A program made the position numbers and the translations under genes. A stretch of 46,651 nucleotides of DNA from SAR202 cluster bacterium (GTDB lineage: Bacteria; Chloroflexota; Dehalococcoidia; Lucifugimonadales; GCA-2712585): the NCBI GenBank assembly GCA_016872285.1, contig VGZZ01000019.1:1-46651 (forward strand). The letters are read 5' to 3'. The notes under the pieces are model-generated. The model was not told where the DNA came from. It did not search any database and saw nothing but the letters and a program-made list of their open reading frames with translations. Below, one piece after another: positions 12,727-19,514 of the stretch (its first letter is position 1; the number at the start of each line of letters is the position of its first letter).

Positions 12727-12819
12727 TTGGGTGAAAGGATAGCGGGGGAGCAAGCGGATGTCTATGATAACGGAGAGGAAGTTTTTTTATCCGTATATGG
12801 GCAATAAAGAGGCAGATCT

Positions 12820-14412
12820 GTGCCCGATGTGTCGCTGGCATTTGGCCTTGTCGGACTGATAATAGCGGTCGCTGCGCTGGCTTCGCGGGTGGTGGACCGC
12901 TGGCATATCTCGATTCCTTTGTTGTTTTTGGTCCTGGGGTTGCTGCTGGGACGACCGGTCTTCGGGGTCATAGACCTTACGCCTGAGAACAGGCTGCTAG
13001 AGGTAGTGGCGACCCTGAGCCTGGCGCTGGTGCTGTTCCTGGATGCGGTGAAGCTGAACATTCGTGAGTTAGGCAGGCGCTGGGTGGTGCCATTCCTGGT
13101 CCTGGTGCCGGGGACGGCACTGGTTATGGCCTTGGGCGCGCTTCCGCTGGGGCTAATGCTAGGGTTGTCATGGACAGTCGCGTTCATTGGCGGCGCGGCT
13201 ATTGCTTCCACTGACCCTGTGGTGCTTCGAGATATCCTAAGAGACTCGCGCCTTCCGCGGTCGATCAGGCAGACCCTTCAGATAGAAGCGGGGTTAAATG
13301 ATATAATAGTGCTGCCGGTGATTCTTATACTCATCGCGGTCGCTGGGAGCCATTTCGACGACGCGGGCGAATGGAGCGCTTTTCTGGCGAAGACCCCGGT
13401 CGTGGGTCCGGTAATTGGACTTGCGATTGGAGGGGTAGGCTCCTGGCTGATTTCCCAGGCTGACACGCGACTGAGTATTCGGCGGGAGCATCAGGCTTTG
13501 TACGGGTTGGGTATGGTGCTGGCGGCGTACTCGGCGGCGACTGCGGCGGGCGGGGATGGGTTTCTGGCGGCCTTTGCCGCCGGCCTAGGGGTAGTGGTCT
13601 TCGGCCAGAAGCTGTGCGACTGCTTTCTAGAATACGGAGAAACGACCTCTGAGATGGCGATGCTTTTCGCGTTCTTGCTTTTTGGGGCCGTTCTATCTGG
13701 CATCCTTGGCAGGGTGAACCCCCTGGAAGGCATAGCCCTGGCAGCAATCGTTATTGTTGCTGTTCGGCCTGCTGTACTGACGGCCTTACTTTCTAAAGCT
13801 AGGATGAGCCAGGCGGCAAAGGCGTTCATAGTCTGGTTTGGGCCTAGGGGACTAAGCACTTTGCTGTTGGCCTTGCTGGCGGTGCAAGCCGGGCTGCCCG
13901 AGGGGGAACTGCTGCTGTCTGCCGTGGGGTTTGTGGTAATAACTTCGGTGGCGTTACACGGAGCGACGGCGGCGCCGGCGGCCGCGATGTACGCGCGAAA
14001 GGTGGCATCGGAGACGCTCGAAGAGGAACGGGAGAGCACCGCGGCGGGGCTGTTCGCGCCAGGTACGGAGACGGTATCACGAATAAAATCCAAGGAGCTT
14101 CACGCGTTACTTAGCCAGCCTTTGGCGCCGATAGTGCTGGACGTCCGCTCTCGGTCCAGCTACGAGGCGGACGGGAGTCAGATTCCTGGAAGCATTCGTG
14201 TGGAGCCGGACAGGATATCTGAATGGGCGGCGGGCCGGCCCAAGGACCGACTCATAGTCACTTACTGCACTTGAAGAAACGAGGCGACGAGCGCCCGTGC
14301 GGCGCAGGAGCTACAGGCGATGGGCTTCAACGTGGCGGCGCTGGAGGGCGGGCTTGCTGAGTGGCGCAGCATGTCGTTGCCTGTTGTGCCTGTGGCTACA
14401 GCCGTTAAATGA
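12820..14412 (+). CDS. CPA1-type cation/proton antiporter-rhodanese fusion with in-frame UGA (candidate selenoprotein)
   Basis: The product is a membrane Na+(K+)/H+ antiporter joined to a cytoplasmic C-terminal rhodanese (sulfurtransferase) domain. The start is GTG 12820 with AAGAGG upstream. Residues 1-390 carry 12-13 hydrophobic helices with antiporter hallmarks: AIASTDPVVLRDIL, EAGLNDIIVLPVIL and FGPRGLSTLLLALL. The rhodanese part runs from about 425 (IVLDVRSRSSYEADG, IPGSIRV). At codon 485 (14272-14274) the frame has UGA in LIVTYCT-UGA-RNEATSARAA. Family members have CPNEATSA-type loops here, so UGA replaces the catalytic Cys. The frame then continues with MGFNVAALEGGLAEW to TGA at 14410-14412 (530 residues). 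Without recoding the protein ends after 484 residues with a dead rhodanese domain. Selenocysteine is inferred; a Cys-to-stop mutation or sequence error remains possible. Confidence 0.8.
14272..14305 (+). promoter_or_regulatory. Candidate SECIS element downstream of in-frame UGA
   Basis: UGA at 14272-14274 is followed by a perfect 5-bp stem GCGCC (14291-14295) / GGCGC (14301-14305) with loop CGTGC. The loop starts 22 nt after the UGA and has G as its second base. Known bacterial SECIS hairpins place the apical loop about 16-37 nt after the UGA with a G near the loop start, so distance and loop fit. The stem is short and GC-rich sequence makes chance hairpins common. Confidence 0.45.
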
Positions 14413-18962: not shown

Positions 18963-19514
18963 TTACTTCTTAAGCTTTTCCAGGAACTGCTTTCTGAGCT
19001 TGGCCACTTTGGGGGCAATTACTAGCTGGCAGTAGGGCTGGTAGGAGTTGGCGCGGTAGTAACCCTGGTGATAGGCCTCAGCCGGGTAGAAGATTTGGGA
19101 AGGCAGAAGCTGGGTGACGATGGGATTGGGCCAGAGTTTGACCTTAGTTAACTCGATGAAGGCTTGCTCGGCGGCCTTTTTTTGCGCGGGGTCGTGGTAG
19201 AAGATGGCGGAGCGGTACTGGGTACCCACGTCGCCGCCTTGACGGTTGAGGGTGGTAGGGTCGTGGATGGTGAAGAAGACGTTCAGTAGGTCTTTATAAG
19301 AGACGACGGTTGGGTCGAAGGTGATCTGGACGGCTTCGGCGTGGCCTGTCGTGCCTGAGCAGACCTGACTGTAGGTGGGGTTGGGAACGTGGCCGCCGGA
19401 GTAGCCGGAGACGACTTTATTGACGCCTGCGAGCTGCTCAAAGACGGCTTCGAGGCACCAGAAGCAGCCGCCTGCGAGGGTTGCGGTCTCCGATTTTCCT
19501 GCCATTGAGTTCAC
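18963..19514 (-). CDS. msrA: Peptide methionine-(S)-sulfoxide reductase
   Basis: Repairs oxidised methionine (S form) in proteins, using thioredoxin or similar reductants. It has 183 residues (or 180 from the second ATG, MAGKSETATLAGG). The catalytic motif GCFWC is at 16-20 with Cys17 as nucleophile. Further family blocks are VVSGYSGGHVPNPTYSQVCS, GHAEAVQITFDP and GGDVGTQYRSAIFY. Cys162 in QPYCQLVIAPK is a candidate resolving Cys. Note that this enzyme uses Cys, not selenocysteine, at the active site. It is convergent to sdhE with a repeat between, and monocistronic. Confidence 0.96.
   Translation of the reverse strand: MNSMAGKSETATLAGGCFWCLEAVFEQLAGVNKVVSGYSGGHVPNPTYSQVCSGTTGHAEAVQITFDPTVVSYKDLLNVFFTIHDPTTLNRQGGDVGTQYRSAIFYHDPAQKKAAEQAFIELTKVKLWPNPIVTQLLPSQIFYPAEAYHQGYYRANSYQPYCQLVIAPKVAKLRKQFLEKLKK

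Follow-up and report, generated by a model that had tools for sequence, protein, structure and literature searches.

A gene in the 46,651-nt stretch of SAR202 cluster bacterium DNA analyzed here (the window) is predicted to encode a CPA1-type cation/proton antiporter fused to a C-terminal rhodanese domain, and the in-frame UGA at the nucleophile position of that domain is almost certainly decoded as selenocysteine (Sec). The decoding, already proposed in the first-pass annotation, is backed by a conserved UGA/Cys pair among homologues, a hairpin specific to the UGA genes, selection on the tail, and the Sec machinery of the genome. The full reading is that of a selenoprotein ion exchanger, in which Sec485 belongs to a cytosolic rhodanese tail that switches the cation/proton exchange of an electroneutral CPA1-type antiporter; we give it a probability of roughly 0.6. 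Gene callers that take the UGA as a stop would truncate the gene after codon 484 and overlook its functional tail. If that tail gates transport, selenium/redox chemistry would be linked directly to ion and pH homeostasis.

The reading frame begins with a GTG at 12820, aligned with the starts of relatives ("VPDF/MPDF"), stays open for 484 codons up to a UGA at 14272-14274, and continues for 45 more codons to a second UGA at 14410-14412. The features of the gene are listed here by position.

12807-12812, plus strand: candidate ribosome-binding site AAGAGG, 7 nt 5' of the GTG start, proposed from the sequence
12820-14412, plus strand: whole predicted selenoprotein gene (antiporter-rhodanese fusion), 530 aa with UGA485 as Sec; stop UGA at 14410-14412
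12865-13980, plus strand: CPA1-type Na+/K+:H+ antiporter domain, residues 16-387, with 13 predicted transmembrane (TM) helices
14092-14370, plus strand: rhodanese domain, residues 425-517, predicted cytosolic
14272-14274, plus strand: in-frame UGA, codon 485, at the rhodanese nucleophile, supported by the UGA/Cys/Trp tally of homologues and the genomic Sec machinery
14275-14409, plus strand: rhodanese part after the UGA, 45 codons, with the helix that follows the active-site loop, the last strand and GGxxxW; pN/pS 0.49
14291-14305, plus strand: predicted bacterial SECIS hairpin GCGCC-CGUGC-GGCGC, loop at 14296-14300, from comparison of homologues and synonymous-site constraint

On the read-through product, Pfam Na_H_Exchanger matched residues 16-387 (133.5 bits, cut-off 26.2) and Pfam Rhodanese matched residues 425-517 (49.4 bits, cut-off 22.2), the latter match spanning the UGA. 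Frame and Pfam matches therefore agree with the original view that the antiporter frame passes through a rhodanese domain, across the UGA, to the second stop. The active-site motif is Y482-C483-T484-U485, that is, C-x-U. The UGA had also been placed at the rhodanese nucleophile, six residues before a Ser, and U485 and Ser491 are indeed in the same register as in solved rhodaneses, where six residues likewise lead from the catalytic Cys to the loop Ser (6mxv). The loop motif put forward at the same time was right in its nucleophile position but not in the Pro that should follow it; this residue is Arg in the window, and Pro is the commonest one in relatives.

To compare codon 485 among homologues, 84,980 species genomes were scanned with two antiporter patterns, which gave at least 80 loci with organism names. 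Among the matches listed, the site was readable in 77 distinct genes, the window counted and the tally being a sample, not a census: the codon is UGA in 66, TGC in 8, TGT in 2, and TGG in 1. Of the 11 genes without the UGA among these matches, 10 have Cys, as expected of a Sec/Cys pair, and the remaining one has Trp, so the question raised at first reading, whether UGA or Cys occupies the codon, is answered by one or the other in nearly all. In the UGA genes among the matches listed, 44-62 codons lie between the UGA and the next stop wherever the contig reaches it. By this comparison of sequences, it is far beyond chance that 66 of 77 genes among the matches listed share the position of the UGA and have long intact tails. 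Independent genomes from many studies and phyla carry the same UGA. Within the same order, 18 orthologues (window included) have UGA in 15 cases, Cys in 2, and Trp in 1, and the downstream frames are intact. Scattered stops and a decayed downstream frame, which the first-pass annotation had named as evidence against its reading, were not seen; relatives have one UGA, at this codon, followed by an intact tail.

A maximum-likelihood tree was built without the UGA column and the hairpin columns. Five state changes are enough on this tree, a minimum of three being required for Sec and for Cys. Every main branch includes the Sec form (Thermomicrobiota, Rubrobacteraceae and other Actinomycetota, Ktedonobacteria, and an Acidobacteriota-labelled MAG), some of the organism labels being MAG titles that are possibly wrong. 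The family ranges over Chloroflexota, Thermomicrobiota, and Actinomycetota; it is widespread in SAR202/Dehalococcoidia and occurs in a few others. Named organisms with the UGA gene include Candidatus Lucifugimonas marina JH1073 (L105) and Thermalbibacter longus CFH 74404 (L099), the genome of the latter having the UGA gene, selA, and tRNA-Sec together. Plasmid records gave partial antiporter matches only.

Two variants of the active site were observed. The uncultured Dehalococcoidia sequence OX638324.1 (L097 / L038) carries TGG (Trp) in place of the Sec codon and lacks the SECIS hairpin; the remainder of the domain is kept, as is selA in the genome. Chloroflexi SAT91 (L087) reads YYAU, with Tyr in place of Cys483, and keeps the Sec codon and the hairpin. 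Cys483, two residues before U485, is otherwise nearly invariant in relatives. The C-x-U pair is not indispensable, since Trp stands at the site in the L097 lineage and Cys483 is missing in L087.

The UGA genes share a hairpin 17-31 nt after the UGA, with a 5-bp stem and a small apical loop, CG(U/G)GN, that holds a G; counting the U of the UGA as 1, positions 20-34 read GCGCC-CGUGY-GGCGC (14291-14305 in the window). Among the matches listed, the loop starts with CG and has G at position 28 in 66/66 UGA genes, with U (58 genes) or G (8 genes) at position 27, and apart from a handful of cells, all five stem pairs are Watson-Crick or G-U. The 11 non-UGA genes among the matches listed have lost the hairpin, its stem pairing and loop both being scrambled. 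The position and the small G-bearing loop match what has been described for bacterial SECIS elements (PMC1088965).

The same region stands out at the codon level. Codons 491-496 are the most constrained six codons in the whole gene: in the UGA genes, same-residue codon identity was 0.881 there versus 0.313 expected from codon usage, compared with 0.411 versus 0.387 over codons 1-480. The effect disappears in the non-UGA genes, where the values for codons 491-496 were 0.337 and 0.254. When window codons 491-495 are replaced by their 2304 synonymous versions, only 6 fold at least as stably as the window hairpin. Folded by itself, 14260-14330 is unremarkable in its thermodynamics (z = -0.42), and because the stem is almost invariant, formal covariation gives a weak signal (56 of 500 shuffles were as good). 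The hairpin at proper distance claimed from the single sequence was thus borne out at 14291-14305 by comparison across homologues, which is what makes it convincing, but not by the single-sequence fold. A second, weaker peak of synonymous conservation was found inside the antiporter domain, at codons 327-332 (13798-13815; 0.50 versus 0.32 expected), and may have arisen by chance.

Pooled pN/pS in the UGA genes was 0.45 for the antiporter, 0.57 for the rhodanese part before U485, and 0.49 after it, and was also 0.49 after U485 outside the hairpin; these values are rough, synonymous sites being near saturation. Judged by these ratios, the post-UGA tail is constrained as protein like the rest of the gene. 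The earlier remark that the 45 downstream codons keep family sequence agrees with these ratios (0.49 downstream versus 0.45-0.57 upstream) and with the Rhodanese match across the UGA.

The genome of the window (2.61 Mb, 83 contigs, 95.6% complete) contains the Sec machinery that a Sec reading had been said to depend on. We found selA (557 bits, cut-off 268), selB (365 bits, cut-off 242), selD (376 bits, cut-off 125), and tRNA-Sec (76.3, cut-off 47), all over the curated cut-offs, and the tRNA-Sec, read directly, has CUUCAAA around the UCA anticodon. Among sampled relatives, selA was over the cut-off in 128 of 147 genomes. In 25 genomes outside the order, it was over the cut-off in 16/17 with a UGA gene versus 4/8 with a Cys gene (Fisher p 0.023); in the same order, it was present in 12/15 UGA-gene genomes and 3/3 Cys/Trp-gene genomes, and the pooled comparison (28/32 UGA versus 7/11 non-UGA) is not significant (p 0.17). 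The co-occurrence of tRNA-Sec was similar to that of selA and noisier. The four of 32 UGA-gene genomes in which selA over the cut-off is absent are all draft MAGs. Several Cys-gene genomes keep selA, so the Cys forms are not simply due to Sec loss; Cys genes in Sec-using genomes have been reported for other families (PMC1794560).

Other in-frame UGA codons were seen in the window's genome. Its selD (L019, contig C33) has one of its own at the catalytic position (HCAG-U-ASK). A separate rhodanese gene (L055, contig C5, about 11.7-12.1 kb) has a UGA at the catalytic position in VTH-U-GGTGRAAL and resembles the known UxxG rhodanese selenoproteins. Another gene (L056, contig C6, about 73.2-73.5 kb) encodes a rhodanese with a C-terminal extension and has a UGA in YCNDYL-U-DMSARAA, an unusual motif in that U precedes the Ser by three residues instead of six.

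This genome also uses UGA as a regular stop, and this very gene ends with it, as would suit an ordinary stop at codon 485 that leaves a 484-residue antiporter followed by an untranslated or decaying remnant; an error of sequencing or assembly could leave the same picture. Such an origin is very improbable in view of the UGA at the same codon in 66 of the 77 distinct genes among the matches listed, from many studies and phyla, of a tail under the same selection as the upstream part, of a conserved hairpin confined to UGA genes, and of Sec machinery in the genome. We consider even less probable that the UGA is read as another amino acid, by a reassigned code or by simple read-through to Trp, for which the TGG of one relative (L097) might be quoted. 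UGA terminates the same gene, the usual sense replacement among the matches listed is Cys (10/11) and not Trp, tRNA-Sec, SelA/B/D, and a SECIS are present, and another UGA stands at the catalytic position of this genome's selD. Sec at codon 485 is therefore the reading retained. A plain stop, a pseudogene, a sequencing error, and a reassigned code were each considered and set aside on the conserved UGA, the hairpin, selection, and the machinery.

The AlphaFold2 model of the protein (70 sequences; mean pLDDT 90, pTM 0.87) has 13 TM helices, those at TDP (130-133) and FGPRG (340-344) being broken, and a rhodanese fold in which U485 lies between strand 478-482 and helix 486-500. The best PDB folds were PaNhaP and MjNhaP1 (4cz8, 4czb), with TM-scores by target length of 0.74-0.77. 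E156-x3-N160-D161, D132, and R343 are invariant in 70 relatives and align to PaNhaP, the E-x3-N-D and TDP motifs included. Both features of CPA1 membership, the E-x3-N-D ion/proton site and the 13-TM NhaP fold, were found, and we regard the antiporter fold as predicted with high confidence. The fold and the nucleophile position of the rhodanese superfamily (PF00581) were found as well. The charged loops, which follow a positive-inside pattern, place the rhodanese tail in the cytosol, a location that is very probable.

The best NCBIfam models were those of YcgO/NhaP2-type K+/H+ antiporters and NF041203, all under their curated cut-offs. NF041203 ("LYCAU", rhodanese-like form 3, CxU) describes a predicted selenoprotein family (PMC13188914) that likewise has a rhodanese domain with a Y-C-x-U active site. 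All 70 relatives of the window protein match this model, and the window protein itself scores 92.3 bits, below the equivalog cut-off of 115; the model covers a single domain of 126 positions, whereas the window's domain is fused to an antiporter. Among antiporter models, YcgO/CvrA/NhaP2 (PRK05326, CPA1) matched best, with 143 bits versus a cut-off of 355. YcgO shares the CPA1 fold, a periplasmic N-terminus, and a regulatory cytoplasmic C-terminal region (PMC11808508), but its tail consists of RCK and CorC where the window protein has the Sec-rhodanese; a domain-profile search found no RCK or CorC domain in the window protein. The Na+/H+ antiporters PaNhaP and MjNhaP1, the best structural matches, are without rhodanese and without Sec. 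KefC/KefB are alike in that a cytosolic domain reads redox/electrophile status to control K+/H+ exchange (PMC10224563), but they belong to the CPA2 family and have an RCK domain and a glutathione ligand; TIGR00932 (KefB/KefC) gave 55.5 bits on the window protein, versus a cut-off of 238, and no RCK.

Rhodanese-like selenoprotein domains are already known, including form 3 with CxU, that is, NF041203 (PMC13188914, PMC9312934). Other Sec membrane/rhodanese fusions are TsoB (NF045694, rhodanese/DsbD fusion-like), SO_0444 Cu/Zn efflux, and YeeE/YedE (PMC13188914); their membrane partners and Sec positions differ, and cation:proton antiporters are not among them. Several transporters figure in the 2026 inventory of 119 prokaryotic selenoprotein families, but neither a cation:proton antiporter nor an antiporter-rhodanese fusion does (PMC13188914). 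No model in NCBIfam release 20 describes the fusion, and an antiporter-rhodanese selenoprotein was not found in the full text of open-licence papers. The first-pass annotation, which knew of no protein of this architecture, thus holds for the sources searched, though CxU Sec-rhodanese domains were already catalogued. The family appears to be one absent from current selenoprotein inventories, with Sec on an ion antiporter.

In the mechanism that we propose, UGA485 would be decoded by SelB and tRNA-Sec, guided by the short SECIS hairpin, to give a 13-TM CPA1-type antiporter that exchanges K+ or Na+ for H+ electroneutrally and has its C-terminal rhodanese domain in the cytosol. The Sec485 selenol, probably with Cys483 of the Y-C-x-U motif, would react quickly and reversibly with an oxidant or a reactive sulfur/selenium species (persulfide, thiosulfate, peroxide, or an electrophile being candidates), so that a selenenylsulfide or Se-S adduct forms, possibly to be resolved by the thiol of Cys483. 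The adduct would alter the contact of the tail with the membrane domain and so switch cation/proton exchange, and cytosolic pH and K+/Na+ would thereby answer redox or sulfur stress. A tail acting as a redox/reactive-sulfur switch that gates K+(Na+)/H+ exchange is somewhat favored by the domain architecture and by analogues. The tail may be regulatory because it stands in place of the RCK/CorC tail of YcgO, a regulatory cytoplasmic tail whose truncation, by removal of the CorC part, gives constitutive activity (PMC11808508), and because Kef uses redox/electrophile signals to gate K+/H+ exchange, through glutathione conjugates on its cytosolic domain (PMC10224563). For the role first annotated, that of a "selenium-based sulfurtransferase or redox sensor", we infer no more than that the tail could act as either.

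The main rival to gating is a membrane-anchored selenoenzyme, the rhodanese being a working sulfur/selenium transferase or reductase for thiosulfate, persulfide, cyanide, or selenium detoxification, and the antiporter giving location or local pH/ions. The complete rhodanese fold with its nucleophile in register is what such an enzyme would have, Sec favors catalysis, and C-terminal rhodanese domains on membrane proteins exist, such as that of the DedA-type PA1209 (PMC12893004). We consider this possible but rather unlikely, since the fusion is intact across phyla and the tail sits where CPA1 antiporters have regulatory tails; moreover, the Trp form of L097 keeps the domain, which fits a binding or regulatory role better than catalysis there. 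A variant of the gating model, improbable but made plausible by YcgO turning constitutive on removal of its CorC subdomain (PMC11808508), is that the UGA itself is a selenium switch. With selenium, the full-length redox-gated antiporter would be made with a working Sec-rhodanese tail; without it, a stop after codon 484 would leave a broken tail and altered, perhaps constitutive, exchange. If so, the ion/pH balance of the cell would read out selenium supply, and the protein would represent a novel type of ion transporter, controlled by a nutrient as well as by redox state.

No broadly recurring partner gene was found in the 3-kb flanks of the antiporter-rhodanese genes by gene-neighborhood analysis, and no neighbor there hinted at a signal or favored gating over the selenoenzyme or the reverse. 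In the window, the upstream neighbor encodes a dCTP deaminase and the downstream neighbors the flavoprotein and iron-sulfur subunits of a fumarate reductase/succinate dehydrogenase-type enzyme, and they look unrelated to the antiporter-rhodanese gene. Past these succinate dehydrogenase/fumarate reductase-like subunit genes, about 4.5 kb downstream of the antiporter gene, lies a gene for peptide methionine sulfoxide reductase A (18963-19514, minus strand).
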